In this document: one piece after another, positions 3,261-22,500 of the stretch
Position numbering within the stretch: position 1 is the first letter of the stretch
Layout of the letters: each line of letters opens with the position of its first letter
DNA from: a virus
Virus record (IMG/VR): IMGVR_UViG_3300020020_000117
Location: 1-33,575 of that record
DNA: 33,575 bases
Direction: 5' to 3' (one strand)
The notes under the pieces: model-generated
Databases searched by the model: none
Seen by the model: the letters and a program-made list of their open reading frames with translations, nothing else
Told to the model about the DNA's origin: nothing
Made by a program: the position numbers and the translations under genes

Positions 3261-3271
3261 AACAAATCTAT

Positions 3272-3732: not shown

Positions 3733-3733
3733 T

Positions 3734-3916
3734 ATGCAACGGACTACCAGCCCCGAAATGATTGAGAAGATAAAGGCCGAACTACAAAAAAAGAAAAAGC
3801 AAGTAGATATTTCAAAAGAACTAAAGGTTAATATCAGCGTTGTTAATCGTGTTGCCAGGGGCCACCACAATCCAAAAAATGAGTACTTTTTTAACTGGAA
3901 AGACTTTAAGATTTGA
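3734..3916 (+). CDS. Small helix-turn-helix protein
   Basis: A 60-residue basic protein starting two bases after the HNH stop. Residues 20-45 (KKQVDISKELKVNISVVNRV) read as a helix-turn-helix of the kind found in recombinases and at the C-terminus of HNH homing endonucleases. It probably binds DNA, either as a partner of the HNH enzyme or as a small regulator. Its last 11 bases overlap the end of the oppositely oriented helicase gene, so the two transcription units converge here without a visible terminator. Confidence 0.6.
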   Translation: MQRTTSPEMIEKIKAELQKKKKQVDISKELKVNISVVNRVARGHHNPKNEYFFNWKDFKI

Positions 3917-6898: not shown

Positions 6899-9416
6899 AT
6901 ATTATTTGCAACAAGGCTTCTCCGTAATCGCCACCGATAATATTAAAAGAGCCATCCTCCCCTGGAAAGAATATCAATCGCATTTACCAACGGAAGATCA
7001 ACTTACCACTCAGTTCAACCACCCTAAAGCCTCCGGGCTTGCTGTAATTTGTGGGGCCGTGTCTGGTAATCTTGAAGTGATTGATATAGACACCAAGCAT
7101 GATCTATCCGGCTCCCTTTGGCAAGATTATAAAAATGAGATCGCTCCTTTAATAGATAAGTTGTACATCGTTCAAACAAAGTCAGGAGGCTATCATATTT
7201 ATTACCGATGTGAAGTAATTGAAGGCAATCAAAAATTATCCCGCCGCCATGCCAGTGAAGCAGAATTAAAGGATAACCCCAACATAAAAGAAATTGTACT
7301 TATTGAGACAAGAGGGGAGGGTGGCTATGTAATTGCGCCGCCGACCCCCGGTTATACCAAGCAGTCCGAATTTATTATCCCGGTTATATCTATTGATGAT
7401 CGGGATTTTTTGTTATCAGCAGCCAGATCATTTAATGAAATAATTGAAGAGGCCCGCCCCGAAATAAGAAACATCCCCGCCGCCTCCCAATACCAAAAAA
7501 CTCCGTGGGATGATTATAATGATCGCTCTAATGTAATTACCTTACTTGAAAAACATGGATGGAAATATATTGAGAAGAAGGGACAGCGAACACTACTAAA
7601 GCGCCCCGGCCAAACAGATGCATACAGCAGCGCCGATTACCACCATGATCTTAACTTGTTTAAAGTATTCTCTACATCAACACAGTTTGAACCTGGTAGG
7701 GGTTATAAACCGTTTGCCGTTTACACCATCCTAGAACACAACAAAGACTTTAGCGCCGCCGCCAAACAATTAATTGCAGACGGATATGGTGAAACGGGTG
7801 TAATGTCTAAGTATGCAAAAAAGGTTTTAAAATCTTTGGGGGCCGGAGTTTCACGGGAAACCATATCTGAAACACTTATGACGGAAGATGGCCTTACCAA
7901 GAAAGAAGCCACAAAAATTATATCTGAAGTTGAGGATCTGTCCGGCCCTGAAATATTAACATTTTGGGAAGTATTACATTTGAAGTCCGGTAAAAAAATT
8001 AATATTATCCGTCATAAGCTGATTGATTTTTTATACAATAATGGCTTTCATCTTTTCTTCTACGATAAGCATAACTCTACTTACCGCATCGTTCAACAAA
8101 AAGATGGTCTTGTTCAATATGTAATCCCAGAGACAATAAAGAAATTTATAAAAGAATATATTAATAGCCTGCCAGAACGTTTCGACGGGATAACCCCCGA
8201 CGAGTTAATGGAAATAGTAATGAAAGGAGGGGATGTGTACTTCGGTAACGGGTTAATGGAATGGCTCACAACAAAAGAAATTGATATTCTAAAAGATACT
8301 GAAGATGCCGCTTACTTCCCTTTTAATAACGGCATTGTAAAAGTAACCGCTAAAGGAGCCGAACTTCTTACATACGGCCAAATAAATAAAGCCGTTTGGA
8401 AATCTCAAGTGATCCCGTTTGATGTTGATGTTGATATATTCTTTGATGAATCATTATGTGAGTTTTATGATTTCTTAACAAAAATATCGGGCGAAAAATT
8501 GGATTATATTTTATCAATCATTGGTTACCTACTTCATCGGTATAAAGATCCATCCCGCCCATACTCTGTTATACTTGCCGAAGAAACCGAAGATGAAAAG
8601 AAAGGTGGTGGAACCGGAAAAGGAATATTAGTAACGGCCCTAACCTATATGTCAAACCTTACCAGGGTGGACGGCAAGAACTTTAAAGTAGATAAGTCGT
8701 TTGCCTTCCAGCGTGTTGATCTTGACACTAAAATAATAGCTATTGAGGATGTCCGTAAAAATGTTGACTTTGAAGGATTTTACTCCATCATAACCGAAGG
8801 CATCACCATCGAAAAAAAGAACAAGGATGAGTTCTCTATCCCTTACAAAGATTCGCCCAAAATCATATTCACTACCAACTACACAATTGCAGGGCATGGA
8901 GGGCATGGTAAGCGCCGCCAAAAGGTATTTGAACTTACTAACCATTTCTCAATAAATAACTCTCCTGTAACCGAGTACGGCCACCGGCTTTTCGATGATT
9001 GGGATCAGGATGAATGGAACCGCTTTTATAACCTGATGTTCGTTTGCGTGATCGGTTATTTACAATCCGGCATCCCGGCAACTGAAACATCTGAGAAGAT
9101 CAACCGTAAGCACATAAGGCTAAATTATACCCCGGAGTTCCTTGATTGGTGGGATGGATATATTGAAAATGGGGCCTCAGAATGGAAGGCTTTTAGGGAT
9201 ATGTATGCTGCCTATTTAGTATCAAATAATCTGGAAAAAAGGGACTTTTCGCAGAAAAGATTCTCCGCAGCACTAATCGAGTCCTGTGAGCGTTTTCGTG
9301 TCCTTTTGGAGCGCCGGAGGCAGGGGTATGACAAGATTTTAGAGTACAGGGCAATACAAGATACCGAAAAAATAGTAAAAAGGGATACGGACGGCACGAT
9401 TGGACAAGATGTATAA
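6882..9416 (+). CDS. Primase-helicase (prim-pol plus helicase ATPase)
   Basis: An 844-residue replication protein. The N-terminus is a bifunctional primase-polymerase domain: VIDIDT (D68, D70), SGGYHIYYR (H105) and IETRGEGGY (E142). The C-terminal half is an ATPase of the D5/SF3-like group: GGGTGKG (about 575-581, Walker A), KIIAIEDV (about 617-624, Walker B) and IIFTTNYT (about 662-669, sensor region). It would both prime and unwind DNA at the phage origin, which may lie in the repeat-rich spacer directly downstream. It is full length, with no internal stop. Confidence 0.9.
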   Translation: MIKSAKYYLQQGFSVIATDNIKRAILPWKEYQSHLPTEDQLTTQFNHPKASGLAVICGAVSGNLEVIDIDTKHDLSGSLWQDYKNEIAPLIDKLYIVQTKSGGYHIYYRCEVIEGNQKLSRRHASEAELKDNPNIKEIVLIETRGEGGYVIAPPTPGYTKQSEFIIPVISIDDRDFLLSAARSFNEIIEEARPEIRNIPAASQYQKTPWDDYNDRSNVITLLEKHGWKYIEKKGQRTLLKRPGQTDAYSSADYHHDLNLFKVFSTSTQFEPGRGYKPFAVYTILEHNKDFSAAAKQLIADGYGETGVMSKYAKKVLKSLGAGVSRETISETLMTEDGLTKKEATKIISEVEDLSGPEILTFWEVLHLKSGKKINIIRHKLIDFLYNNGFHLFFYDKHNSTYRIVQQKDGLVQYVIPETIKKFIKEYINSLPERFDGITPDELMEIVMKGGDVYFGNGLMEWLTTKEIDILKDTEDAAYFPFNNGIVKVTAKGAELLTYGQINKAVWKSQVIPFDVDVDIFFDESLCEFYDFLTKISGEKLDYILSIIGYLLHRYKDPSRPYSVILAEETEDEKKGGGTGKGILVTALTYMSNLTRVDGKNFKVDKSFAFQRVDLDTKIIAIEDVRKNVDFEGFYSIITEGITIEKKNKDEFSIPYKDSPKIIFTTNYTIAGHGGHGKRRQKVFELTNHFSINNSPVTEYGHRLFDDWDQDEWNRFYNLMFVCVIGYLQSGIPATETSEKINRKHIRLNYTPEFLDWWDGYIENGASEWKAFRDMYAAYLVSNNLEKRDFSQKRFSAALIESCERFRVLLERRRQGYDKILEYRAIQDTEKIVKRDTDGTIGQDV

Positions 9417-9487
9417 TTTTAATCGTGTCTAGGATAACTATTTGAAAAATAAACTTATTATATACACAATACACGATAGACACGATT
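9395..9487. repeat. CACGAT repeats with 11-bp inverted repeat
   Basis: AATCGTGTCTA at 9421-9431 is mirrored exactly by TAGACACGATT at 9477-9487, 45 bases apart. The motif CACGAT(T/A) occurs at 9395, 9472 and 9481 on the plus strand and at 9427-9421 on the minus strand. The spacer between the arms is AT-rich. Iterated short motifs directly after a primase gene suit a replication origin or an operator; a transcription terminator is less likely because the loop is so long. Confidence 0.5.
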
Positions 9488-9494
9488 CTTTTAG

Positions 9495-9541
9495 GTAGTA
9501 GTAGTAGTAGTAGTAAATAATAATAAATAAGAGAGAGGGGG
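9495..9541. repeat. Low-complexity tract: seven GTA units, TAA and GA runs
   Basis: GTA is repeated seven times (9495-9515), followed by TAA-like repeats and a GAGAG-to-G-run. This low-complexity stretch lies in the 200-base spacer (9417-9616) between primase-helicase and methyltransferase. No gene is seen there. Repeat length may vary between isolates; it may help unwinding if an origin is present. Confidence 0.6.
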
Positions 9542-9616
9542 AGCAAATAGGGAAAGGTCGTATTTTGGTGTCCATTGTGTCCGAAGTCTAAACAATGAAA
9601 AATATAAACTTTAAAT

Positions 9617-10816
9617 ATGGAAAATACAAAAATGGACATTTCGCTCCTAAAAGAGAACCCAGATAACCCCAGGGTTATAACAGATGCAAAATTTCAGGCT
9701 TTAGTACAGTCGGTCAAGGATTTTCCCAAGATGTTGGAGAAGCGGCCTATTGCCTTTAAAAAGGCCTTAGACGGGAACGTTGTTCTTGGTGGAAATATGC
9801 GGTTACGTGCCTGTATTGCTGCCGGCATGAAGGAAGTTCCGGTTATTGATTGTTCGGATCTGACCGATGCGCAGCAGCGGGAGTTTGTGATAAAGGATAA
9901 TGTCGGATTCGGTGAATGGGAGTGGGATAAGATCATTTCCGATTGGCCGGAAGCACCTTCGTGGGGCCTTGATATACCTGATTGGGCTTTGCCGAAGGCG
10001 GAAGCGCAGGAAGACGATTACGAGATACCGGATGAAATTGAGACAGATATAGTACTTGGAGATTTATTTGAAATAGGCGAACACAGGCTGCTTTGTGGGG
10101 ATAGTACCCAAACAGACACTTTCATCCGCCTGTTCGGGCAGCAAATGGCCGACCTTGTAATAACTGACCCTCCTTATAACGTGGATTATGTTGGCAAAAC
10201 AAAGGATGCTCTAAAAATCGGGGGGGATAAGCAAAAGGATGGTGATTTCTATCAATTTCTTTATGACTTTTACACCGCACTCGGCAGTTACACAAAAGCC
10301 GGAGGAGCTTGGTATGTTTGGCATGCGGATTCTGAAGGAGCCAATTTTCGCAAGGCAATGGCCGATTCAGGTATAATGGTAAAACAATGTTTAATTTGGG
10401 TAAAAAATAGCATGGTAATGGGTAGGCAGGATTATCAGTGGCAGCATGAACCTTGCCTTTACGGTTGGAAAGAGGGCGCAGCACACGGATGGTATTCAGA
10501 TCGAAAACAAACAACCATTCTAAATTTTGACCGGCCATCAAGGTCATCAGAACACCCAACAATGAAACCCGTTACTCTTTTCTCATACCAAATTGGAAAC
10601 AGCAGCAAGCAGGGGGATATTGTTGCCGATGGTTTTGGTGGCTCTGGTACAACAATGGTGGCTTGTCACCAGATGCAACGCAAGGCGTACTTATCAGAGA
10701 ACGACCCAAAGTACTGCCAAGTAATAATTGACAGGATGTTGAAATTAGACCCAAGTATCATCATTAAAAAAAATGGAGTAACTTTATCACATGGTGAACA
10801 AGCAGAAGCAAAATGA
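9617..10816 (+). CDS. ParB-N/DNA-adenine methyltransferase fusion
   Basis: A 399-residue protein. Residues 5-95 form a ParB/Srx-like N-terminal domain (LKENPDNPR, VVLGGNMRLRA). Residues 145-390 form an N6-adenine or N4-cytosine methyltransferase with DPPY (184-187) before FGGSGTT (340-346), the beta-class order of motifs IV and I. It probably methylates phage DNA at a specific site, either to evade host restriction or to mark DNA for replication or packaging. The terminase small-subunit gene starts inside its last 26 bases, so the two are coupled. Fusions of ParB-N to a methyltransferase are common in phages and mobile elements. Confidence 0.9.
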   Translation: MENTKMDISLLKENPDNPRVITDAKFQALVQSVKDFPKMLEKRPIAFKKALDGNVVLGGNMRLRACIAAGMKEVPVIDCSDLTDAQQREFVIKDNVGFGEWEWDKIISDWPEAPSWGLDIPDWALPKAEAQEDDYEIPDEIETDIVLGDLFEIGEHRLLCGDSTQTDTFIRLFGQQMADLVITDPPYNVDYVGKTKDALKIGGDKQKDGDFYQFLYDFYTALGSYTKAGGAWYVWHADSEGANFRKAMADSGIMVKQCLIWVKNSMVMGRQDYQWQHEPCLYGWKEGAAHGWYSDRKQTTILNFDRPSRSSEHPTMKPVTLFSYQIGNSSKQGDIVADGFGGSGTTMVACHQMQRKAYLSENDPKYCQVIIDRMLKLDPSIIIKKNGVTLSHGEQAEAK

Positions 10817-11162
10817 GATGGTGGAAGCGATGATCAAGTATATGGGGGTGGTAACAACCGCTGCAAGGTCGATTGATATTCCCAGGTCTACCTATTACGA
10901 TTGGATGGATACAGATCCGGCATTTAAGCAGCGCATACTTGATCTGCGGGAGATTAAAAAAGATTTTGTTGAATCGAAGTTGTTAAAGCTGGTTGAGGAT
11001 GGAGATACCGCTGCAACAATATTTTCAGCAAAGACATTGCTAAAAGATAGGGGTTATGTGGAGAGGCAAGAGGTAACTCCTGTTGATAGTGACGGCAACT
11101 CCATCCAACCAGTAATAAACATTAACGTAATCAGAAATAAAAAGGAGGATGATAGCTTATGA
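10791..11162 (+). CDS. Terminase small subunit-like protein (TerS)
   Basis: A 123-residue protein with an N-terminal helix-turn-helix (VTTAARSIDIPRSTYYDWM, about 21-39) and a helical middle ending in ATIFSAKTLLKDRGYVERQ, the layout of DNA-recognition subunits of phage terminases. TerS binds the packaging start site and loads TerL. TerL is about 6 kb downstream, which is unusual, and the DNA between holds accessory genes. The alternative is a generic phage HTH regulator. Confidence 0.75.
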   Translation: MVNKQKQNEMVEAMIKYMGVVTTAARSIDIPRSTYYDWMDTDPAFKQRILDLREIKKDFVESKLLKLVEDGDTAATIFSAKTLLKDRGYVERQEVTPVDSDGNSIQPVININVIRNKKEDDSL

Positions 11163-11344
11163 ACTTACTCGCAATAATCATAACGGTTGTAGTAATTGGT
11201 TTCTTGCTATACGTTATCAACAGACTTATCCCGATGCAGCCTACGATAAAAAATATTCTTAATGTAGTTGTGATCTTAATACTGGTTGTATGGTTACTTA
11301 AAGTATTTGGTATTCTCGATTCAATGCAGAACGTACAAGTATAA
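11159..11344 (+). CDS. Two-span small membrane protein (Thivi_2564-like)
   Basis: A 61-residue protein with two hydrophobic helices (about 3-20 and 33-50) separated by NRLIPMQPTIK. This matches a small family seen in many phages and bacteria (Thivi_2564-like), of unknown function and sometimes proposed as holins. AAGGAGG precedes the ATG by about 11 bases and the start overlaps the TerS stop. A holin role is possible, but no endolysin is nearby. Confidence 0.7.
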   Translation: MNLLAIIITVVVIGFLLYVINRLIPMQPTIKNILNVVVILILVVWLLKVFGILDSMQNVQV

Positions 11345-11381
11345 ACTTTTGTTGGATAAATAGGTTTAATGGTTTGAATGT

Positions 11382-11407
11382 AGTCCTGGTATTTTCATAC
11401 TGGGACT
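11382..11407 (+). terminator. Hairpin with short pyrimidine loop, terminator-like
   Basis: Arms 11382-11392 (AGTCCTGGTAT) and 11397-11407 pair over 11 bp, including two adjacent G-T wobbles, around loop TTTC, and are followed by TTCTTAT. It lies 38 bases after the membrane-protein stop. It is one of a family of similar hairpins in this window. Confidence 0.55.
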
Positions 11408-11423
11408 TTCTTATAAATGCGAA

Positions 11424-11443
11424 ACCCCAATAGAGATTGGGGT
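11424..11443. other. Perfect 8-bp hairpin
   Basis: ACCCCAAT (11424-11431) faces ATTGGGGT (11436-11443) around AGAG. No T-run follows. With the preceding hairpin it fills the otherwise gene-free stretch 11345-11546, where I see no further coding frame. Confidence 0.5.
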
Positions 11444-11546
11444 CGTGCGCGTGAGAAATTGTTTATGAAAATTAAAGTTAGTAACAATTGATCGAAATAT
11501 GAAATAGTTTATTATCTTAGTATTTCTAAACTGCATTGTGCCGCAG

Positions 11547-11651
11547 ATGATCAAAAAATATAACGATAATAAAGGTAGTACATTAACTGCGTCTCCATCT
11601 TCGGGTGACGGCGGCACAACTTTTAGTGTACTGCCCTTACTATTAAAATAA
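11547..11651 (+). CDS. Very small Gly/Ser/Thr-rich protein, uncertain
   Basis: A 34-codon frame: MIKKYNDNKGSTLTASP, then SSGDGGTTFSVLPLLLK. It ends 6 bases before the next ATG. The KGSTLT and GDGGTT segments look like a beta-turn-rich surface peptide rather than random sequence. Very short virion-associated proteins are common in Bacteroidota phages, but neither expression nor conservation can be shown here. Confidence 0.4.
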   Translation: MIKKYNDNKGSTLTASPSSGDGGTTFSVLPLLLK

Positions 11652-11657
11652 TTTATT

Positions 11658-11846
11658 ATGACTGAAGTAACCAAGAAAACCAGAACGCCTCGTCAACCAG
11701 AGTACATTTTCAAGGGTGCATTAAAGTTATCTTTACAGGAAAGAGCGGATCTTGTAAAACAGTTGCAAGAATCAATTACAGCTGAAGTAGAAACTATAAA
11801 AGCTGCTGCTGTACACGCTGAAAAGATTGCTAATGGTAACAATTAG
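11658..11846 (+). CDS. Small helical hypothetical protein
   Basis: A 62-residue protein with a basic N-terminus (TEVTKKTRTPRQPEYIFKG) and two amphipathic helices (about 24-60). There is no membrane segment. It is one of a series of small plus-strand genes, each separated by a hairpin and an AT-rich tract, which suggests separately tuned messages. The function is unknown. Confidence 0.55.
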   Translation: MTEVTKKTRTPRQPEYIFKGALKLSLQERADLVKQLQESITAEVETIKAAAVHAEKIANGNN

Positions 11847-11872
11847 TTCAATAGGAATTGGAATAACCAAAC

Positions 11873-11900
11873 GGCTGGTGTTTCTACACTGGCCCCAATT
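11873..11900 (+). terminator. Rho-independent-like terminator
   Basis: GGCTGGTGT (11873-11881) pairs with ACACTGGCC (11886-11894) around loop TTCT; two adjacent G-T wobbles sit mid-stem. It is followed by CCAATTTT. It is 27 bases after the preceding stop and just before the 11918 gene. Confidence 0.6.
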
Positions 11901-11917
11901 TTAAAAAAACTTATAAC

Positions 11918-12112
11918 ATGAAGATCCATATTTATAATCACATCGTTCAGGATTGCGAAGATAAACAGCAACTTGATCGCATTGAATCAAAGTTAGATGA
12001 GTTGTTAAACACAACTAACCGTGTTAAAGAACTTGAAGCGCAAATGGATTCGTGGCTGGCCAGGTTGAAATCTGGCTTTGAGAAGCTGGAAGAGTTAAGC
12101 AAACAGGTGTAG
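11918..12112 (+). CDS. Small coiled-coil protein
   Basis: A 64-residue protein: an N-terminal MKIHIYNHIV strand and then a continuous coiled coil (about 16-62) with regular Leu spacing (QLDRIESKLDELL). It probably oligomerises. Short proteins with this MKIHIYNH-type start occur in Bacteroidota phages without known role. An overlapping minus-strand frame is taken as a shadow. Confidence 0.55.
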   Translation: MKIHIYNHIVQDCEDKQQLDRIESKLDELLNTTNRVKELEAQMDSWLARLKSGFEKLEELSKQV

Positions 12113-12123
12113 TTCTTTTTATA

Positions 12124-12205
12124 TTCTCTGTCTTCGTCCTTTGGAAGGGCCGAATCAGAAGACGTTCTGGTGGTCAAGAAGTATGTTCGAATCATAGCAG
12201 GGAGC
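12124..12205 (+). other. tRNA-like sequence, not a canonical tRNA
   Basis: TTCTCTG (12124-12130) pairs over 7 bp with CAGGGAG (12198-12204). GTTCGAATC (12185-12193) is a textbook T-loop with 4 flanking pairs. A TTCG/CGAA stem sits where the D stem should be, with GG in a 14-base loop. The anticodon arm is wrong: CAGAA-GACG-TTCTG leaves only four loop bases, and 11 extra bases precede the T stem. It may be a decayed tRNA, a tRNA-derived attachment-site relic or coincidence. Confidence 0.3.
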
Positions 12206-12241
12206 AGTCTCTTATTTTTTAATTTATAAATTTTAAAACCC

Positions 12242-12451
12242 ATGCCTACAAATCAGGAAAATTTCGATGCTCTAATGAGCAGACTGAATGTTGCTACAAA
12301 CGACATCGCAGCGGATTACCAGAAACTATTGGATGAAGCAAAAAACAATAGCGTTTCTGCCGAATCAATTGCAGCTGCTGAAGCAAACATTGCGAAACTT
12401 GAGGCATTAGGAGCTTCGGTTGAAAACCCGGTTCCTGAGCCAGAATCGTAA
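12242..12451 (+). CDS. Small Ala-rich helical protein
   Basis: A 69-residue acidic protein of two long helices rich in Ala, Asn and Glu (ADYQKLLDEAKNNSVSAES, then AAAEANIAKLEALGA), ending in a Pro/Glu tail (PVPEPES). This resembles small phage proteins of the helical-bundle type often found near structural genes. It has no recognised function. A hairpin with T-rich tail follows the stop within 30 bases. Confidence 0.55.
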   Translation: MPTNQENFDALMSRLNVATNDIAADYQKLLDEAKNNSVSAESIAAAEANIAKLEALGASVENPVPEPES

Positions 12452-12454
12452 CTC

Positions 12455-12480
12455 ATAGCCCTGAGTGATCGGGGCTATTT
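12455..12480 (+). terminator. Terminator-like hairpin
   Basis: ATAGCCC (12455-12461) pairs exactly with GGGCTAT (12472-12478) around a 10-base loop, just after the TAA of the preceding gene, followed by TT. The T-run is short, so termination may be weak. Confidence 0.5.
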
Positions 12481-12552
12481 ACTATGACAATTATGAAACA
12501 TCATATAAACTTTCTTCTTAGGGCTCACAGCCCAAAAGGATGGTGGATTTAC

Positions 12553-12580
12553 CCCCGGTTGTTCTCAACTGGGGTCATTT
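12553..12580 (+). terminator. Terminator-like hairpin
   Basis: CCCCGGTTG (12553-12561) pairs with CAACTGGGG (12566-12574) around loop TTCT with one G-T wobble, followed by TCATTTT. Loop and downstream ATTTTAAAAAA tract match the hairpin at 11873. A smaller GGGCT-CAC-AGCCC hairpin lies at 12521-12533. The stretch 12452-12589 shows no convincing gene. Confidence 0.55.
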
Positions 12581-12589
12581 TAAAAAACT

Positions 12590-12694
12590 ATGGACGATAA
12601 TAATGAAAATACTGATTGGGGTATGATAGCTTACTTAGGACTTTTAGCAATTATTGCAATCTGTATTACTGTTGGATATGTATTAACACATTAA
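12590..12694 (+). CDS. Very small single-span membrane protein
   Basis: A 34-codon frame: an acidic start (MDDNNENTDWG) and one hydrophobic helix (about 12-31, including IAYLGLLAIIAICITVG). It is followed 11 bases later by a lipoprotein gene. A small membrane protein next to a lipoprotein recalls lysis or exclusion gene pairs, but nothing specific supports either. It overlaps a doubtful 38-codon frame upstream. Confidence 0.5.
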   Translation: MDDNNENTDWGMIAYLGLLAIIAICITVGYVLTH

Positions 12695-12705
12695 ATCATC
12701 AAACT

Positions 12706-12999
12706 ATGCGCTTCCTAATCTTCTTACTCGCTATGTGTTTTATTGCTTCGCTGTGTTCCTGCACTAAGCAAACCGATTACGATTATCTGAATACTGATCG
12801 TGCTGGTACATACGAATATCAAATGGTAGTTGATTGGCACTCGTTAGATACTACTGTACTTTATCATCGCTATACTCAAGACTTAGGGAAGTTGAAGGAA
12901 TCAGACGTTAAGACATGGCAAGAACTGTGGTACATTGACTGCAATATGTTAGATAGATTACAGCATTTATATTACAGGAAGAAACCAACAAGTAAGTAA
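12706..12999 (+). CDS. Putative lipoprotein
   Basis: A 97-residue protein from ATG at 12706. Residues 1-18 form a signal peptide (MRFLIFLLAMCFIASLCSC) with lipobox-like LCSC, giving an acylated Cys near residue 19 and a mature part of about 78 residues rich in Tyr, Trp and Asp. A longer frame to 12616 exists, but that extension lies inside the membrane-protein gene and lacks a signal, so the internal start is preferred. Candidate roles are superinfection exclusion or outer-membrane lysis; neither is shown. Confidence 0.65.
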   Translation: MRFLIFLLAMCFIASLCSCTKQTDYDYLNTDRAGTYEYQMVVDWHSLDTTVLYHRYTQDLGKLKESDVKTWQELWYIDCNMLDRLQHLYYRKKPTSK

Positions 13000-13017
13000 T
13001 GACTTAAAAGAATTAAA

Positions 13018-13344
13018 ATGAAATGGGTTAAAGCATCAGGGCAACTACCTTATAAAAAAGACAGATATTTTGTAAAACTTGACAGTAGAAGTAAAGAGCT
13101 AATATATTTTAACGGCAATAGATTCGAGACTTACGAATGGATAACTCATGATCATATTGAATGGCTTTATGAGGACGATAAACCATTGCTTCAAATAATA
13201 AAAGAATTAGAAAATACTATTTACCATGAAAGGGCAAATAATGAGCAGACATTATTGGTGCTTTCAAGAAAAGATGCAGAGATAGAAGCGTTAAAAGAAA
13301 GAGTTAGTTTTTTAGAGGGACTTGCTAAAAAGATGTTTCTATGA
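13018..13344 (+). CDS. DUF551-like N-terminus with coiled-coil tail
   Basis: A 108-residue protein. Residues 1-52 start MKWVKASGQLP and end HDHIEWLYE, like the short phage DUF551 domain (a Trp at each end, strand-rich). Residues 55-106 form a coiled coil. The next gene begins in ATGA overlap with its stop, and this coupling continues through four more genes to 15674, so this is the head of a tightly coupled operon with the glycan genes. The function is unknown. Confidence 0.6.
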   Translation: MKWVKASGQLPYKKDRYFVKLDSRSKELIYFNGNRFETYEWITHDHIEWLYEDDKPLLQIIKELENTIYHERANNEQTLLVLSRKDAEIEALKERVSFLEGLAKKMFL

Positions 13345-13586
13345 GATACGATGAAAGAATTGTACCAAAGTTTATGAAAGATAAAATTGCTGACACCTAT
13401 TTATATGCCTCAAACAGGGAAGAAAAAATTAGGGCGGCCATGTATGGTTATATGCTTGCGATAGAACAAATAAAAAAGCCGAAGCAATGTGATGCTTGTA
13501 ATGCTATGTGCAGGGCTGAGGGATGGAATGAGTGTTGGGATTTGTGTACTTGCAAATGTCATAATATAAATGTTATACTTCCATGA
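13341..13586 (+). CDS. Cys-rich small protein
   Basis: An 81-residue protein whose C-terminal third holds seven Cys and a His (CDACNAMCRAEGWNE, CWDLCTCKCH), suggesting a small zinc-binding module. The N-terminus is helical and basic. It starts in ATGA overlap with the previous gene and ends in ATGA overlap with the Stealth-like gene, so it belongs to the coupled cassette. It may bind metal or nucleic acid; no family is recognised. Confidence 0.6.
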   Translation: MRYDERIVPKFMKDKIADTYLYASNREEKIRAAMYGYMLAIEQIKKPKQCDACNAMCRAEGWNECWDLCTCKCHNINVILP

Positions 13587-14230
13587 CAGTCGCCTACCCC
13601 CTCAAATCACAGTCAGATTACACAGAGTTAAGATACTCACTAAGGTCTATTGAAAGATTCTATCCACGACCTACTGAAGTTTTAATCATTGGCGAGAAGT
13701 TACCAGACTGGATTACTAACGTAACACTGATACGGGTTGAAGATATTACAAGCAGAAAGCAACTAACTATCAAGTATAAAATATTAGCAGCGTTAGAGTA
13801 TACAAAGGAAATATTCTTTATGAACGATGACGTTTATTTACTTCAGCCACCAGATTACAAGTACCATTATCATGGTGATCTTATCTCAGTAGGCGAAGCA
13901 GGGGCAAGGCCGTTAAGGAATCAGCTTTTAAATATGGGATTACCTACTAAGAACTTCGACGGGCATTACCCGTTAGTTTATAGACAAGACTTTGTTCAAA
14001 TCCTGGATAAGTTTGCTCATGATGTTATTGTGAAGTCGGCGTACTGCAACTATTTACAAATCGAAGGTGAATATGTACCGGATAATAAACTAATAACGCA
14101 GAAGAAGGAAGAAGATATTAAAGGCTTCATTCATGGCAGGCCGTCATTCTCTACAGGAGCGCATAGTTTAGCAAGAACGTTACCGATATTACATGAATAT
14201 TTTCCTAATAAGAGTAAATTTGAGGTATGA
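13583..14230 (+). CDS. Stealth-like sugar-phosphate transferase or glycosyltransferase
   Basis: A 215-residue protein. ELRYSLRSIE (15-24) resembles Stealth conserved region 1, and EIFFMNDDVYLL (76-87) resembles conserved region 2 with its NDD. Stealth proteins are hexose-1-phosphate transferases that build surface capsules. The enzyme is shorter than classical Stealth proteins (about 300-400 residues), so it may be a minimal form or a related GT-A enzyme using the DD as a metal site. It begins a run of three sugar-related genes between the terminase subunits. Translation is coupled to both neighbours by ATGA overlaps. Confidence 0.72.
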   Translation: MTVAYPLKSQSDYTELRYSLRSIERFYPRPTEVLIIGEKLPDWITNVTLIRVEDITSRKQLTIKYKILAALEYTKEIFFMNDDVYLLQPPDYKYHYHGDLISVGEAGARPLRNQLLNMGLPTKNFDGHYPLVYRQDFVQILDKFAHDVIVKSAYCNYLQIEGEYVPDNKLITQKKEEDIKGFIHGRPSFSTGAHSLARTLPILHEYFPNKSKFEV

Positions 14231-14457
14231 AATGTTATAGAGTAATAAAAGATAACTATCTTGGGTTTGAAGTACAAGTAAAAAAGAGATTTTTATTTTG
14301 GACTTGGTGGAAACAATGTAGGCATTTTTATAGCGTTAATACATTTAAGACTTTAGAGGCTGCTAAAAATTGGGTAGATCGTGGCACACCAATAGAAATT
14401 CCGCCTGAAGAAAAAATCAGTACTAATGTTGTTTGGATTACGGAGGGTTGTAAATGA
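14227..14457 (+). CDS. Small basic aromatic hypothetical protein
   Basis: A 76-residue protein rich in Trp, Phe, Tyr and Lys (RFLFWTWWKQCRHFYS near residue 21) with a Pro/Glu C-terminal half. It looks like a small beta-rich domain. ATGA overlaps at both ends place it inside the glycan cassette between two sugar-transfer enzymes. No function is recognised. Confidence 0.6.
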   Translation: MKCYRVIKDNYLGFEVQVKKRFLFWTWWKQCRHFYSVNTFKTLEAAKNWVDRGTPIEIPPEEKISTNVVWITEGCK

Positions 14458-15674
14458 AGATCCTCGTCACCATAATAATCTACAACCGCTATCATAATCT
14501 TGAAGCGTGGTTAAGGTACTGGCAGCAATGTAATACTGGTAACGCCGAATTGGTAGTGATCCATAACGATAACGGCGAATCAGCTAAATTCAAATCATTA
14601 TGCGACGCAAACAATATCCGTTACATTAGACGAAACAACATCGGCTTTGATATTGGAGCTTTCCAAGATGTTTGCCTGGAACGATTACCTGGTTTCCCGG
14701 ACTACGATTACCTGCTATGGATTACCGATGATACAGTTCCTATGACTTTAAACTTTATCACTCCTTTCATAGAACAGATACAGCAATCCGGAGTAGGTAT
14801 TTCATGTATGCAAATTTCTAAATCAGTAACGCCCCACGTTCGTACTACTGGGTTCTGTATAGCTAAGTCGACAGCTAACAGATTACAGTTCCCGGCTGAT
14901 CCCGTAAGCACTAAAGCGCATTGTTACCACTTCGAGCATAGAGGCGGTAAACAGATACTAACTAACCAGGTTAGGGAAATGGGGTTATCATGTGAGATGG
15001 TTGCACCTCCTACTGTATCGCCTCTATGGGACACTGGTTACTGGAAACGGATGGACAGGCAAGCTGAGCATGATAGACTTTTTAACCCCGATAAAGTATC
15101 GGGTGATAAAGTGACTTTTATTTGTACTATCTTTAATTCTTACCCGCAAATAATATCTTCATTGTTACTTCAGACACATAAGAATTGGGAGTTGTATTTA
15201 ATTCATGACGGGCCTGCACCGGATTCTGTAAAGAGTTTAATACCTTCAGATGATAGGATAAAGTTTATTGAATCAGTAGAAAGAAAAGGTAATTGGGGGC
15301 ATCATTTAAGACAATGGGCTTTAAATGATTTCAAACTTGGTGATTATGTTGTTATAACTAACGCAGATAATTATCATGTGCCAGTATTTACTGAATATCT
15401 ATTGCGAGGCTTCGCACGATCACATACCGCAGTAGCAACGTACTGTGATTCGATGGCTCATTCGTATAAAGCATGGCAGGTTATCCCGGTAAGTTTCAAA
15501 CGTGGTTTTATTGATTGCGCCGGTGTAATGGTAAAAAGTGAAGTAGCTCGTGAGGTTGGTTGGAATGATACCGAAAATCATTCATCGGATTGGACTTACT
15601 TTTCAGAGATAGCGGCAAAGTATTCGCCAAAAAACTTTATCCCGGTTAAGGGATGTTTGTTAGTACATAATTAA
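14454..15674 (+). CDS. Two-domain GT-A glycosyltransferase
   Basis: A 406-residue protein with two GT-A-like halves. Half one (about 1-200): MKILVTIIIYNRYHNLEAW, FDIGAFQD and DD at 92-93. Half two (about 218-406): FICTIFNSYPQIISSLLLQT, HDG (251-253) and NADNYHVP (303-310), the usual acceptor and metal segments of family 2. It likely adds two sugars in succession or polymerises. GGAGG precedes its ATG, which also overlaps the previous stop. No membrane segment is seen, so it acts in the cytoplasm. Together with the Stealth-like and C-methyltransferase genes it suggests a phage-coded glycan. Confidence 0.85.
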   Translation: MKILVTIIIYNRYHNLEAWLRYWQQCNTGNAELVVIHNDNGESAKFKSLCDANNIRYIRRNNIGFDIGAFQDVCLERLPGFPDYDYLLWITDDTVPMTLNFITPFIEQIQQSGVGISCMQISKSVTPHVRTTGFCIAKSTANRLQFPADPVSTKAHCYHFEHRGGKQILTNQVREMGLSCEMVAPPTVSPLWDTGYWKRMDRQAEHDRLFNPDKVSGDKVTFICTIFNSYPQIISSLLLQTHKNWELYLIHDGPAPDSVKSLIPSDDRIKFIESVERKGNWGHHLRQWALNDFKLGDYVVITNADNYHVPVFTEYLLRGFARSHTAVATYCDSMAHSYKAWQVIPVSFKRGFIDCAGVMVKSEVAREVGWNDTENHSSDWTYFSEIAAKYSPKNFIPVKGCLLVHN

Positions 15675-15679
15675 ATTCT

Positions 15680-15886
15680 ATGGCATACGAGTACAGGGTA
15701 TTAGATTATGAAGATTTTGAAAAGATGTTGCCTGAAAAGGAAAGAGGTAGAGGATTTGAAAATGTGTTAACACTCCTTAGTGGAGATGGGTGGGAGCTGG
15801 TTACTAAAGACGCCATCAATGGTAATTATTATTTTAAAAAGGAAGTCGTATCAACCAAATGTGGACTTCTTATTAAGCCACAATAA
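15680..15886 (+). CDS. DUF4177-like small protein
   Basis: A 68-residue protein with YEYRVLDYEDFEKMLPE, then LTLLSGDGWELVTKD and YYFKKE, the strand-helix-strand pattern of DUF4177-type proteins (the GWELV signature is distinctive). Such domains are common next to phage and bacterial operons and lack a known role. It lies 5 bases after the glycosyltransferase and 10 bases before the methyltransferase. Confidence 0.65.
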   Translation: MAYEYRVLDYEDFEKMLPEKERGRGFENVLTLLSGDGWELVTKDAINGNYYFKKEVVSTKCGLLIKPQ

Positions 15887-15896
15887 AAAGTAACTA

Positions 15897-17144
15897 ATGA
15901 TAGACACCGAACAACTAATCAAGAACAAAGATTACAAGATACTAACTGAATGTCGTTGCTGCGGATCAGATAGGTTAACAAAGTATCTGGATCTTGGTTT
16001 CTTACCGCTATCAAATAACCTTGCAGCGAGTACGATAGCTTCGTTTAATAAAGAGAAATTCCCGCTACAGGTTTTGTTTTGCGAAGAGTGTGCATTGTCT
16101 CAATTATCAATAGTGGTTGATCCTTCAGTAATGTTTGGGCATTATGTATATAGGTCGAGTATCTCAAAGACGTACATAACCCATTGTAGAAATATGGCTA
16201 TCGAGCTAAAGCCACAACTAACGAAAGATTCATTCATGATTGATGTTGGCTCTAATGACGGCACGTTACTACGAGAGTTTAAAGAAGAAATAGGATTGAA
16301 GATAATGGGTATTGACCCGGCTGAGAACTTAGCAGCTATTTGCGATGCTGCTGGCATTCCAAATATGACTTACTTCTGGGGGCTGGGTACAGCCAGAAAG
16401 ATCGTTAATACTTTCGGTAAGGCTGATCTGATTACCGCTACAAATGTTTTTGCTCATTGTGATAATGTAAAGGAATTTATAATCGCAGCTAAACACGCAC
16501 TGAAGCCAGACGGCATACTTGTGTTAGAGTTTCCGTACCTGATCGACTTCATAGAGAACAACGAGTTTGATACAATCTACTTTGAACATCTTAGTTACTT
16601 CTCTGTTGCTCCGTTAGCAAGACTATGCTACGAGTGTGATATGAATGTAATGTCAGTATCGAAGCAAGATATTCACGGCGGGACAGTACGGGTGACTATT
16701 GGAACCGGGGTTATTGATAAGTCGGTATTTGATTTCATGGAGAGGGAAAAGGAATACGCTACTGCTTCGAAGTATATGGATTGGTCAACGAAGGTTAATC
16801 ATACTATAAACGAATTAAAGTATCACTTATCTAAACTTAAATACGAGGGTAAAAAGATAGCCGCTTTTGCTGCTTCGGCAAAGGGTAATACGTTACTGAA
16901 CTGCGCTAATATAACGGTAGGAACTATAAACTACATAGTTGACCAAACACCTGAAAAGATAGGTAAATATTCACCCGGCACAGGCATCCCGATTGTAAGC
17001 ATGGATGACTTGATAAGAACGCCGCCTGATTATTTGTTGATCTTGTCGTGGAACTTTAAGGATGAGATAATTTATAAATGCAGGCAGGCAGGTTACGAAG
17101 GGATGTTTATTATCCCGATCCCAGAATTTGAAATAGTAGTATGA
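15897..17144 (+). CDS. Sugar C-methyltransferase (TylCIII/NovU-like)
   Basis: A 415-residue SAM-dependent methyltransferase with the three-part layout of nucleotide-sugar C-3 methyltransferases: an N-terminal zinc-binding domain (C19, C22, C62, C65), a SAM fold with MIDVGSNDGTLL (114-125) and ATNVFAHCDN, and a C-terminal substrate-binding domain with VDQTPEKIGKYSPGTGIPI. Members add a methyl to NDP-keto-deoxy sugars, forming branched sugars. The gene is intact. TerL starts in ATGA overlap with its stop. Its presence implies a modified sugar for the phage glycan or hijacking of host sugar pools. Confidence 0.88.
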   Translation: MIDTEQLIKNKDYKILTECRCCGSDRLTKYLDLGFLPLSNNLAASTIASFNKEKFPLQVLFCEECALSQLSIVVDPSVMFGHYVYRSSISKTYITHCRNMAIELKPQLTKDSFMIDVGSNDGTLLREFKEEIGLKIMGIDPAENLAAICDAAGIPNMTYFWGLGTARKIVNTFGKADLITATNVFAHCDNVKEFIIAAKHALKPDGILVLEFPYLIDFIENNEFDTIYFEHLSYFSVAPLARLCYECDMNVMSVSKQDIHGGTVRVTIGTGVIDKSVFDFMEREKEYATASKYMDWSTKVNHTINELKYHLSKLKYEGKKIAAFAASAKGNTLLNCANITVGTINYIVDQTPEKIGKYSPGTGIPIVSMDDLIRTPPDYLLILSWNFKDEIIYKCRQAGYEGMFIIPIPEFEIVV

Positions 17145-18430
17145 CCACCACAAAACCCTTCCAAATACGAATGGATGAGCTGCATCCAGCGCAAGGTACA
17201 ATAATGAGTGAGCGCAGAAGGTTTAACACTCTGAAATGTGGCAGAAGATTCGGAAAAACTAAATTAGCTGAAGAACTTTTATTATCACCTGAAGATAAAA
17301 CCAACGGGGCTTTAAATGGTTTCCCGGTTGCTTATTGTGCGCCTACTTATAAAATGGTTATGGAAGTATGGAGGGCAATTAACGGGATAGTTTACGGAAT
17401 TACAAAATCTAAAAGCGAAACAGAGAAACGTATTGAGCTTGTTGGTGGCGGTACTATCAATATGTGGTCAATGGATTCGGCAGATTCGATAAGGGGTAAT
17501 AAATACAAACGGATTATTATTGATGAGGCCGAAATAGTTGCTGATCTGAAAAATTCATGGCAGCGGGTAATTAGGCCAACACTTACGGACTTGAAAGGTG
17601 ATGCCTGGTTTCTATCTACTCCGGCATTTGGCGAAAGCTATTTTAAATCTTTATGTAGGCTTGATAATGAGAAGTGGATGAACTGGAAGTATTCAAGCTA
17701 TGACAACCCATACTTAGATCCGGCCGAAATTGACGAGGCTAAGGAGCAGCTCGATGAAGAGGTTTTTAATTGCGAATATTTAGCAGAAGATGTTTCATTG
17801 GCGGTTAATAAGTTCATCTATAAATTTGATAGGAAGAAACATATCGTTAAAGGACTTCAGCCATTTCCATTCTTACCAATAATACTTTCGTTCGACTTCA
17901 ACGTAGAGCCTATAACTTGTATGGTTGGGCAGTGTGAAGGGTTAGACAAGGTGAGAATATTGGATGAGTATAGGTTAATGAATAGCGATATTGAGGAGCT
18001 ATGCGCAAGAATATTTTCAGACTACTCAGATAAAATGTTATTAGTTACTGGTGACGCTTCGGGCCAGAATAGAACAGCTTTGAAAAGAGATTTAAACTAT
18101 TATAAGGTAATAAAACAGGAACTTAAATTAGGTATGGGGCAGTTTAAACTACCGGCGGCTAACCCAAGAATAAAGAACACAAGGGTATTATGTAATTCGT
18201 TATTAAGTAAGCATACTGACTATTTATTTTCAGATCGTGTTCCATATCTTATTGCTGATATTGAGAGTTGCGAAGTAGATGCACATGGCGATATTGATAA
18301 ATCAAAAGATAAGCACAAAACCCACTTATTGGATGCTTGGAGGTATTTTAACTGGACTTTTCTTAGTAAATTTATTAATCTGAAACTTTATGACCAAAGT
18401 CCCGACCTACAAAGCAACGGAAATACTTGA
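17141..18430 (+). CDS. Terminase large subunit (TerL)
   Basis: A 429-residue DNA-packaging motor. The ATPase has Walker A CGRRFGKT (33-40) and Walker B RIIIDEAE (124-131). The nuclease has LSFDFNVEP (D252), VTGDASG (D305) and LLDAWRYF (D398), the RNase H-like triad. The length fits a family that pumps DNA into the prohead and cuts concatemers. It is coupled by ATGA to the sugar methyltransferase rather than to TerS or portal, which is unusual for this gene. Confidence 0.93.
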   Translation: MTTTKPFQIRMDELHPAQGTIMSERRRFNTLKCGRRFGKTKLAEELLLSPEDKTNGALNGFPVAYCAPTYKMVMEVWRAINGIVYGITKSKSETEKRIELVGGGTINMWSMDSADSIRGNKYKRIIIDEAEIVADLKNSWQRVIRPTLTDLKGDAWFLSTPAFGESYFKSLCRLDNEKWMNWKYSSYDNPYLDPAEIDEAKEQLDEEVFNCEYLAEDVSLAVNKFIYKFDRKKHIVKGLQPFPFLPIILSFDFNVEPITCMVGQCEGLDKVRILDEYRLMNSDIEELCARIFSDYSDKMLLVTGDASGQNRTALKRDLNYYKVIKQELKLGMGQFKLPAANPRIKNTRVLCNSLLSKHTDYLFSDRVPYLIADIESCEVDAHGDIDKSKDKHKTHLLDAWRYFNWTFLSKFINLKLYDQSPDLQSNGNT

Positions 18431-18608
18431 GATGTGTACCAGCTTGAAATTAGAATACGATACCTTTAAAGTGTTGGTTGATTTAATCGAAGATGAACTT
18501 TATCTTTATAGTGACGAAGATTTAATAATTTTGATGCAGGCGAGTGTAATAATGTTTAGTAGATCAATGTTGAAATTAAGTTTAAATAATATGAAATGTG
18601 GCAACTAA
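18390..18608 (+). CDS. Small helical acidic protein
   Basis: A 72-residue protein starting 41 bases inside the TerL gene (MTKVPTYKATEILEMC). A second ATG at 18432, just after the TerL stop, is an alternative start. The middle is helical and acidic (VLVDLIEDELYLYSDEDLII) with Met-rich ends. The position between TerL and the tail chaperone suggests a small head-tail or tail component; no domain is recognised. Confidence 0.5.
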   Translation: MTKVPTYKATEILEMCTSLKLEYDTFKVLVDLIEDELYLYSDEDLIILMQASVIMFSRSMLKLSLNNMKCGN

Positions 18609-19129
18609 CTAAGGACGGCGATAAACGAACTTACACAAACTCCGCAACTGGTAGCCAATCTACGCAGACGTTAGTTTATAAAGATAAGGACGGCAATAAG
18701 TGGTACAGCTTCGACGATCTTACCGCAATGCCTTATACAAGATCATTCGCAGCTACTAAAATAACTTCACTGTATGCTTTGGGATTGAGTAAAGATGATT
18801 TGACGGCTCACATTACTACGATGAAAACGATGCTGAAGTCTAACGATCCAGAGAAGCAGGAGAAGATGTATGCCTCAGTTTTGGACTTCGAGAATAAAGC
18901 TAATAACGCAACTGATGCGATAAAACAAATGTCATCTTTAGTCTGTGTATATTTCACAATGAACGATGAACCAATAGATTCATTTGATAATAATTTACAG
19001 ATAAAAAAAATGAGTTTATTGGAGGCCGACATCGAGATGCATGGTTTTTTTTTGAAACATCAGATCGGTATCACAGAACGGTATTCCAGGTTCTTAGAAC
19101 AGCTTTCCCGAATTGCTTCTCAAGTGTAG
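18596..19129 (+). CDS. Tail assembly chaperone, zero-frame product
   Basis: A 177-residue protein directly upstream of the tape-measure gene, the position of lambda gpG-type chaperones. Residues 1-60 are strand-rich (TLVYKDKDGNKWYSFDD), the rest helical. Nine T bases at 19045-19053 lie about 25 codons before the stop, and the -1 frame is open from there to 19347, so a longer fused product is likely made by -1 frameshifting, as known for gpG/gpGT. The protein would wrap the tape measure during tail assembly. A similarity search would settle the family. Confidence 0.7.
   Translation: MWQLTKDGDKRTYTNSATGSQSTQTLVYKDKDGNKWYSFDDLTAMPYTRSFAATKITSLYALGLSKDDLTAHITTMKTMLKSNDPEKQEKMYASVLDFENKANNATDAIKQMSSLVCVYFTMNDEPIDSFDNNLQIKKMSLLEADIEMHGFFLKHQIGITERYSRFLEQLSRIASQV
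19045..19054 (+). promoter_or_regulatory. T9 slippery site for -1 frameshift
   Basis: Nine T bases (GGT TTT TTT TTG in the zero frame) provide T_TTT_TTT and T_TTT_TTG heptamers of the X_XXY_YYZ type. A -1 slip reads TTT TTT TTT GAA and continues to the stop at 19345-19347. I see no obvious downstream pseudoknot by eye. A homopolymer sequencing error is the alternative. Confidence 0.65.
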
Positions 19130-19347
19130 AGCGAAAACATGGTTCGTTCTCAAGTGAGTTACAGAAAGCGGCAGATTCGGAAAGATCAATGCAGTTAATG
19201 ATGCGAAGTATAACAAACGGGGTTATATCAGAACGGGATAGGTTATTTCAATATACTACGGGGGAATACTTTCAGGAGTTATCGTTATTCATTCAGGAGG
19301 TGGAGACAAAGAATGCCGAATATAAGAAGTTGAATGAAATTAGTTAG
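19045..19347 (+). CDS. Tail assembly chaperone, -1 frame extension
   Basis: This is the open -1 frame from the slippery site to TAG at 19345-19347, about 100 codons, giving a fusion of about 250 residues with the 18596 gene. The C-terminal part (FSSELQKAADSERSMQL, then RDRLFQYTTGEYFQELSLF and EVETKNAEYKKLNE) is helical, acidic and protein-like, in keeping with a gpT-type segment. An ATG at 19189 could start a separate 52-residue protein, but its position between chaperone and tape measure fits the frameshift model better. Confidence 0.6.
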   Translation, partial: FFFETSDRYHRTVFQVLRTAFPNCFSSVERKHGSFSSELQKAADSERSMQLMMRSITNGVISERDRLFQYTTGEYFQELSLFIQEVETKNAEYKKLNEIS

Positions 19348-19547
19348 CTTTATAAACACGATCGATACTGATAATACAGTATCGGGCATTATGTAACGCT
19401 TTTATATCAATGCAATTTTATAAGTGAAATAAATCTGCTTTCAATAAGTATAAAAGAAGATTCGTATATAGTGCGAAACAGATACTGTAATTTTTTACTA
19501 TCTTTACCTAACGATTAGAGACAAACGGGAATTTTTCTTTAATCGCT
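19348..19547 (+). promoter_or_regulatory. Intergenic leader before tape measure, with hairpin
   Basis: No gene is seen in these 200 bases. CGATACTG (19363-19370) pairs perfectly with CAGTATCG (19377-19384) around ATAATA. GATACTG recurs at 19481-19487 inside ACAG-ATA-CTGT followed by AATTTTTT. TATCTTTAC at 19499-19507 partly matches a Bacteroidota -7 box, but no TTTG lies at the right spacing. The region may terminate chaperone transcription and restart it for the tape measure. Confidence 0.4.
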
Positions 19548-22500
19548 ATGGCTGACGAAATAACAAGGTTAATATTCAAAGCAGAATTTGATGATTCAGG
19601 CTACATTCGTGGCGTTGAATCTGCTTCTTTAACTACACAGAAATTTACCCAACAACAGGAGGCGGCAAATAAGAGGCTAAAAGAAAATGAAGCCGCTTTA
19701 AAATCAGTTGCTGATATTGTAGAAAAAGACAGGAGGGCTTTAGAATCTTACACAGGTACAGATACCAAATTCAGAAAAACATTAGAGGATAATTTAAAGG
19801 CTTCACAGTCTCAATACGATGCTTTAAAGAAGATCGTTGATGACGTTAGGGCAGCTTATGAAAGGGCAAAGAAGTCGGCAAGTGAATTTGCAGATACATC
19901 TAACCGAGCAAACAATCTTCCGGCAACTCCAGGTGGCAGGGTTCCGGTTCCGCCAGTAGTTCCCCAACCAGTACCCCAAATTATCCCTCCCGCTGCGTTT
20001 AATGACTTTAATATTCAGGATATACTTTCAGCTACAACGGTGGAGTTCGAAGAACTACGAGCAGCCATAGCACTTGCAGACGCAGAATTACAGAAACTGA
20101 ATAAAGACAGTGAAGAGTTTAAGCAATTAGCCCCAATTGTCGAGACAGGCAAAAAGGCTTTGGCTGATTACGACGAAGCTGCAAAGAAAGCGGGTAATTC
20201 AACCTTATCACTTCGCTCCCAGATCAGGCAGGGCCGGGAAGAGTTAGTTAAACTTGAGGCGCAGGGTAAGGGGAACACTAAACAATACTTTGAACTTGAA
20301 AAGAATGTAGCCCGGTTGACAGATGCTTTCGGGGATCAGCAACAGCGGATTAAAATACTTGCCTCAGATACTAAGGCTTTGGACTTTGGTAAGGGCGCAA
20401 TTACAGCTGCAACTTCAGCGTTTTCGGCATATACTTCCGTTTCAATTCTGGCCGGTGAGCAGTCCGAAGAAATGCAGAAGAAAACCTTACAGTTATTCGC
20501 AGCTATGCAGTTACTTCAATCGTTGGAGCAGTTGTCGAATCTCACAAGACGGGAAGGGGTTCTGGCTACGTTAGCGCAATCGGGGGCGCAGGCTGCTTAT
20601 ACGGCTGTGGTTGGGACTTCAACGGTAGCGATGGGTAGGTTTAAATTAGCATTAGCTGGTACTGGAATTGGTATTGCGATAGCGGCTATCACTGCACTTG
20701 TTATTGCGTATCAAAAACTCGGAGAAGCAAGTAAAGAAGTAGCGGCAGAACAAAAAGCAGTTACCGAAATAGGGCAAGCAGCGGCAAGTTCATTCGCTGC
20801 TGAAGTTGTTCATTTAGATTTAGTGAAAACAAAACTGAACGACCTTAGTATTTCGCAGAAACAAAGGATTGCATTAGCAAAAGAGTATAACAAAACTGCT
20901 GAAGAGGCTAATAAAATTGACTTAAAGCAGATTGATAATATTGCGCTGATTAATAAAGCTATTGATTCGCAGATTGCTAAAATAAAAGAACGGGCTTTGG
21001 CAAGAGCAGCCGAAACTGTTATAGCAGAAAAAGCAGAAGCGGTATTTAGAATACAGGCAGAGATTGATGCAAAAAGTCCTGTACTTGATGTTAATCAAAA
21101 AGCTGCTACATCAAGACTTCAAGCTGAACAGCAAACTTTGGATGCCAGGGTAGCTTCAATAGTAGCAAACCAGGCAAAAATAAAAGGTATTAAGCCAGTA
21201 TCATCTGCTGAAATACTTGCATTATCTGGTTTAAGTGATGAGCAGATAGCTGCCGGTGCTGCTAATAGTGATAAATTAAAATTATTGCAGGATAAAACTA
21301 TTGCTAATGAACTTCGTTCTATTAATTTAAGGAAACAACAAATTGCTTCCCAGAACGTAGGTATAAATGCTGATTTGCGTGGTTTATTTGATAGCCTTGA
21401 TACAGCTCAGGATGCTTTAAATAACGCATTGAAATTTGGAGTTGATTTTATAACCGTTGAATCTTTATTTAAAGAAGGAGGATCAAAGATTGAAAATGTT
21501 TTTATTCAAGAGCGGGATAAACTGCTTGCCAAGATTGCAGAGTTAAGACGCTCTGAAGAAACAGGAATAAAAGCTATTAACGATCAGTTTGCGGCCAAGT
21601 TAGTAGTTGAACAGAATCGTATAGCCGGATTACTTAAGGAGCAGAAAGTAACACAGCCGCAGGCTGAAGTACTTGTTAAATTAGCTGTAGCAGCAAACCA
21701 AATAGAACTCGATAAAGCCCTTGCCGACTTCAATAAAAAAGTATTAGACGCAAGAGAAAAACTGAACGATGATCTGCGCAAGCTTCAGGATGCACAAACC
21801 GAAGAAACTTTAAATCTTATTCAGGATGAGTTTGAACGCAGGAGAGCGTTAATTGATTTTAATGAGAAACAAGAACTGGCAGATGCGGCAGAACGAAATG
21901 AAGATAGATTGGCTGCCCTGGATCTTGATCGGTTATTATTGGGTGAAGAGGCTTACCAGAATGCAAAGAATATTATTATAACTACTGGTGAACAGGAGGC
22001 GAATAATATACTGGCAAGATTTGCAGCATTAAGGAAAGATTTAGCAGCTGATACATTCCGCAGTCTGCTCGATTCAATAGGTGCAGGACTTCAGACTGGT
22101 TTAATATTCCGGGATGAAAACTTGGCTCAGGAAATAAGGGACGCTTCAGATCGTTTCTTACAAGGCAAGATCACTTACGAGCAGTTTCAAAAAGAACTTA
22201 CTGCAATCCAAAGACGTGAGGAGGGCATTCGCAGGGATGCAACGCTAAGTAACCAACGTTCTGAATTAGCTGAACTTGAAAGCCATATCGCAACAATAGT
22301 TGATACAACGACCGAAGAGTATAAAACATTAACTAAGCTACGAGATGATTTACGGGCGAAGATCGCACAGGGAGAAAAAGAGGATGCGATTAAAGATGCT
22401 GAAGATACTAATACAGATACGAACACTCAGAAAGTTGAAACCTTAAACGATTATGTTATTGCTGTTGGTGATTTAGCTAACTCAGTAATCCAATTCTGGC

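Follow-up and report, generated by a model that had tools for sequence, protein, structure and literature searches.

What is a run of sugar-modifying genes doing between the two terminase subunits of a phage, and on which molecule do its products act? Phage particles are commonly regarded as bare protein, and the best-known sources of branched C-methyl sugars are antibiotics and O-antigens. The window analysed here, the whole of the 33,575-base virus record IMGVR_UViG_3300020020_000117, encodes a relative of the sugar C-methyltransferases, and a first-pass annotation of the sequence had offered three targets for the cassette to which it belongs: virion proteins, the host surface or DNA. The window would then be a fragment of a genome of about 47 kb: two related records (47,341 and 47,379 bases) look like near-complete genomes of that size in that a gene or gene run broken at one end continues at the other, and no exact end overlap was found in either.

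The placement of the cassette between TerS and TerL was confirmed by PHROG matches, the two terminase genes and the genes of the run all being on the + strand. The gene for the small subunit (10791..11162; phrog_309, E 1.5e-7, and four further TerS families) forms the left boundary of a variable interval and that for the large subunit (17141..18430; phrog_2, E 1.2e-31) the right, the start of the latter overlapping the stop of the sugar C-methyltransferase gene in an ATGA. Four-base overlaps of this kind occur at five of the seven junctions of the run (13341, 13583, 14227, 14454 and 17141), while the other two leave 5 and 10 bases between genes, ahead of 15680 and 15897 respectively, so the initial description of a run largely joined by ATGA and ending in TerL holds good. 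As a glycan cassette the run stands for its enzymes but not for its small ORFs, for which no glycan role could be identified and which differ from one relative to another. Two of these (108 and 81 aa; 13018..13586) open the run, have neither a family nor a homologue in relatives and are probably passengers unrelated to the cassette. The 76-aa ORF at 14227..14457 (phrog_8363, E 6e-5) is common to relative L016 and missing from L005, and the 68-aa ORF at 15680..15886, with a weak match to DUF4177, was found among the relatives in L004 only.

Rfam gave no match, the count of a Bacteroidota-type promoter pattern was not above chance, and sigma-70 promoters and terminators were no commoner in 9400-19600 than in shuffles. 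A terminator-like nine-pair hairpin with a T-rich tail (12553-12574) lies in a stretch that is 97% conserved in L016. Directly upstream of the cassette is a small ORF (12706-12999) with a lipoprotein-type signal, LCSC, and a start region kept in relatives. Closer to TerS, an element of ~145 bp with a 34-codon ORF (11505-11650) is 94-97% identical in L005, L003 and L010, whereas TerL DNA in the same relatives is only about 69-85% identical; the element could be a promoter, a packaging site or a small gene. A homing-endonuclease-like gene (23741-24232) is situated amid the tail-region genes. As a guide to the host phylum, TerL was compared with 395 genomes from the phylum to which the Cytophagales record L116 pointed, and three weak matches resulted. 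Family, structure and phage searches found no capsid or portal in the phage group and gave no confident identification of its major capsid protein.

The last gene of the run (15897..17144) encodes a 415-aa sugar C-methyltransferase (C-MT) with the architecture of TylC3, TcaB9 and MtmC. It carries PF08421, PF13489 and PF08484 (Methyltransf_13, _23 and _14), each over its curated cut-off, and the closest solved structure is that of the D-mycarose 3-C-methyltransferase MtmC (4rv9, E 6e-73). Residues C19, C22, C62, C65, H187, Y228 and H231 are invariant among ten viral sequences, whilst E230 is kept in the window protein and most of the ten, with Q in two. The Y-x-E-H motif aligns with TcaB9 and MtmC, and together with the conserved zinc CxxC...CxxC and His residues forms what we take to be the catalytic set known from TcaB9. 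Domains, motifs and structural match thus all bear out the TylCIII-like C-methyltransferase named at first pass. The phage protein has the three-domain layout, zinc cysteines, catalytic H and Y-x-E-H in common with the TylC3/TcaB9/KijD1/MtmC sugar 3-C-methyltransferases, but its setting differs: those enzymes are found in antibiotic or O-antigen clusters, whereas the phage C-MT sits with a glycosyltransferase and TerL in a phage that, unlike those settings, has no sugar dehydratase of its own.

Enzymes of the TylCIII type methylate C3 of NDP-4-keto-6-deoxy sugars, and that of S. argillaceus also shows 4-ketoreductase activity (PMC3539893). Neither a GDP-mannose-dehydratase-type gene nor any other 4,6-dehydratase of the phage's own was found in the phage group, so the nucleotide sugar would need to be supplied by the host. 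A dTDP sugar fits, because an RmlA-like gene (named from its sequence) adjoins the nearest non-viral C-MT. A GDP route in one operon is seen in Synechococcus phage DSL-LC02, where GDP-mannose dehydratase, C-MT and GDP-fucose synthase are consecutive; as in the window, the C-MT there lies amid glycosyltransferases near a virion gene, but the two additional enzymes mean that DSL-LC02, unlike the window phage, could make the sugar itself. For the cassette we infer, as donor and final sugar, a 3-C-methyl-6-deoxy sugar derived from an NDP-4-keto-6-deoxyhexose.

The gene at 14454..15674 encodes a glycosyltransferase (GT) of 406 aa. At the sequence level a single GT2 domain is apparent (residues 217-330, GT2/SpsA-like; PF00535, E 2.4e-9; SpsA, E 2.7e-9), and by fold the N-terminal half appears to be a second GT-A-type domain: the top Foldseek match of the predicted structure is chondroitin polymerase K4CP (E 1.8e-14). 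On this one model, of mean pLDDT 71, the protein is predicted to hold two GT-A domains in one chain, in agreement with the two-domain glycosyltransferase of the first-pass annotation, and the structural prediction proposed there as a check has thus returned, for this protein, a tandem GT-A fold resembling K4CP. Like K4CP and heparosan synthase, the phage GT would have its two GT-A-type domains in a soluble chain; it is, however, shorter and only 13-14% identical in sequence, and the likeness of fold need not extend to polymerisation.

The remaining enzyme, a Stealth_CR2-like transferase of 215 aa (13583..14230), occurs in both of the cassette types described below. It matches Stealth_CR2 at E 2.5e-7 (31.3 bits, under the curated Pfam cut-off of 39.4) and phrog_7999 over its full length, has an invariant NDD motif at residues 81-83, and as a profile gives a weak match (E 3.6e-4) to solved GlcNAc-1-phosphotransferases. 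The CR2 core with its NDD motif is therefore shared with Stealth proteins and GlcNAc-1-phosphotransferases such as GNPTAB and CpsY; unlike them, the phage protein is only about 215 aa long, has CR2 alone (none of the CR1, CR3 and CR4 models matched) and falls below the family cut-off, so the label Stealth-like is apt for the core and not beyond it. Its AlphaFold model, of mean pLDDT 47, was dropped from the fold search. Mycobacterium phages Cheetobro and Fionnbharth each carry a full-length phrog_7999 homologue, with the terminase gene three genes further downstream.

Relatives fetched with TerL and with the Stealth-like protein as queries allowed the cassette to be compared across related phages, as the first-pass annotation had proposed. 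The Stealth-like gene is kept in every relative with the region assembled; in L011 it comes after TerL, in all the others between TerS and TerL, and alongside it is one of two blocks. In type A (the window, L005, L016, L004 and L011) it stands beside GT and C-MT; type B has instead four genes in fixed order, encoding a weakly GT-D-like protein, a GT-B enzyme, a GT2 enzyme and a phrog_14179 glycosyltransferase. Core gene order is constant inside each type, whilst the small ORFs in between vary freely. DNA similarity between the types ends near 14095, inside the Stealth-like gene, and returns at 17153, at the start of TerL. Type B relatives L002 and L003 have TerLs 93% identical to that of the window, against 75-76% for type A relatives L005 and L004, whose C-MTs are 95% identical to that of the window; cassette and TerL have thus been exchanged separately. 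The cassette, with its constant Stealth-like member and one of two alternative blocks, is a module.

Other genes come and go in the same region. Mom-like DNA-modification genes (PF25680) are found in the TerS-TerL interval of L016 (8520-9110) and of L010/L043 (L043 11281-11925), and a homing-endonuclease-like gene lies within the type B cassette of L007 (596-1348), so the interval is also a cargo-accepting site. L011 has a GT2 enzyme and a sulfotransferase as extra genes; its TerL (9263-10624), behind which the glycan cassette is placed, resembles that of the window only over the last half (residues 221-428, 74%) and, from this alignment, is likely a chimera. Relative L040 encodes a tail-spike-like protein of a pectate-lyase fold family (1810-5097) whose start is hydrophobic and signal-like.

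In IMG/VR, at least 559 stretches encoding a C-MT relative were picked up by a profile scan, as against 8 of 50,697 cultured phage records with any match; the suggestion that C-methylated sugars are rare in phages therefore stands for cultured phages but not for metagenomic viruses. In L141 and in the set L142/L148/L150/L151/L208, the C-MT comes after a homologue (48-50% identity) of the 406-aa GT, with its end overlapping the TerL start, the same run into TerL as in the window and L025, but the TerLs concerned form two clusters that BLAST did not match to the window TerL. Portal, protease and major head genes come next in L141, L148, L151 and L208, and in L137, whose TerL groups with those of the L142 set, a gap of 309 bases separates C-MT from TerL. 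A third further TerL cluster (L145/L146/L153) has a sugar-transferase gene, C-MT and TerL in a row, with TerL ~0.8 kb after C-MT. Elsewhere, C-MT is downstream of the major head gene: in L027, L028 and L031 with GT in between (starting 99 bases past the head gene in L028 and separated from it by one small ORF in L027), and also in L033 (with GDP-mannose dehydratase), L035 and a set around L157-L176. A quick tree places the L033 and L035 C-MTs outside the viral clade of the window, suggesting that C-MTs entered this kind of neighbourhood more than once.

Across 79 viral C-MT loci, a head gene lies within 3 kb at 29 and within 10 kb at 35; these are raw counts without a control set and, because the head-gene panel is small, lower bounds, the same limited panel detecting no head gene within 10 kb at the other 44. 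The weight of the linkage lies instead in the way one gene order turns up repeatedly next to unrelated TerLs. Type B contributes a further case: its last glycosyltransferase is homologous to part of one in Cellulophaga phages phi18:1 and phi12:3, the gene for which sits between a head-morphogenesis gene and the protease/capsid genes. The glycosyltransferase genes are linked to virion genes, as they are in virion-glycosylating phage systems, and the tie that the first-pass annotation drew from position in one genome is stronger than first thought. The cassette is a real, conserved and exchangeable glycan set, belonging to a phage module that recurs in linkage with packaging and head genes; a literature search covering few subscription journals found no paper describing the GT and C-MT module.

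The best explanation, and one that we regard as probable, is that the cassette glycosylates the virion with a 3-C-methyl-6-deoxy sugar made from a host NDP-4-keto-6-deoxyhexose; what the analysis shows directly is the enzyme families, their conserved active-site motifs, the operon layout, the block exchange and the recurring linkage to head genes, whereas substrates, acceptor, order of steps, late expression and benefit are what we infer. The module would act late, in the cytoplasm. Host enzymes would supply the dTDP- or GDP-linked NDP-4-keto-6-deoxyhexose, and the phage C-MT would methylate it at C3 using SAM and might also reduce C4, as its relative MtmC does. The Stealth-like transferase would most likely attach the first unit, a sugar or sugar-1-phosphate, to a protein of the capsid or tail, with the two-domain GT attaching the methylated sugar and a second sugar in turn. 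Exchange of the block for the alternative four-gene set may then give related phages different surface glycans. No cassette enzyme has a strongly hydrophobic segment, which fits cytosolic acceptors, and this, the head-gene linkage and the finding of no TET/JBP or thymidylate-synthase-like genes in the group favour a cytosolic virion protein as acceptor. In mycobacteriophages, proteins of the capsid and the tail tube bear glycans (Freeman 2023, as cited in PMC11256854 and PMC12619734). Phage glycosyltransferases are tied to those capsid and tail glycans, as proposed here, but glycosylation of the Che8 type (as cited in PMC11256854) has been demonstrated, whereas that of the window phage is read from its genes and would involve, in addition, a sugar C-MT gene and linkage to TerL.

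Were the acceptor DNA instead, the glycosyltransferases would attach sugars to a base that is hydroxylated or reactive in some other way, shielding the genome from restriction before packaging. Phage glycosyltransferases placing diverse glycans on DNA have been published (Pyle 2024, as cited in PMC12619734), the Mom-like genes of L016 and L010/L043 share the interval, and a fused ParB-DNA methylase gene stands immediately before TerS. Yet TET/JBP and thymidylate-synthase-like genes are missing from all 12 records of the group (two of 47 kb, most of them fragments), one of which has a C5-methylase, and the gene pair is tied to TerL and major head genes of unrelated phages rather than to replication or nucleotide genes. 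The missing partner genes disfavour DNA as the target and we consider it improbable.

About as improbable is a change to the lipopolysaccharide or capsule of the infected cell that bars competing phages. TylC3-like enzymes do serve O-antigen sugars, for example in the proposed virenose pathway of Coxiella (PMC3539893), and the lipoprotein-like ORF just upstream is possibly a superinfection-exclusion lipoprotein. The cassette is not, however, built like a Gtr serotype-conversion system (GtrA flippase, GtrB lipid-carrier transferase and membrane GtrC): it has no flippase, bactoprenol glycosyltransferase or membrane transferase, matches to the GtrA and GtrC families were not found, and one GT2 protein of L011 gave a weak GtrB-like PHROG match (E 0.0012). 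With such membrane partners not found, enzymes free of strongly hydrophobic segments and a gene order that binds the cassette to packaging and head genes, this second option of the first-pass annotation is also disfavoured; a late surface change would, besides, presumably be of little use to a lysing cell.

That the enzymes are mere passengers of a tolerant TerS-TerL gap, serving an unrelated target or riding as selfish cargo with no fixed role, is just as unlikely: in relatives the gap does hold numerous unrelated small ORFs, as well as Mom-like genes and a homing endonuclease, and the head-gene linkage could reflect such a tolerant site, but core order is fixed within each type although small ORFs vary, the GT and C-MT pair reappears next to unrelated TerLs as well as downstream of head genes, and active-site residues are invariant or nearly so.

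Virion glycosylation is thus the preferred reading. A broader version of it, held tentatively and with more doubt than belief, is of a widespread virion-coat system in which tandem GT and C-MT genes have been inserted repeatedly next to terminase or capsid genes and exchanged as blocks against other sets of glycosyltransferases, letting close relatives change particle serotype with 3-C-methyl sugars. If this is true, numerous environmental phages would make their own glycan coats, branched C-methyl sugars included. The module offers a direct test of virion glycosylation beyond the mycobacteriophages, and compact enzymes, both sugar C-methyltransferases and glycosyltransferases, can be drawn from it.
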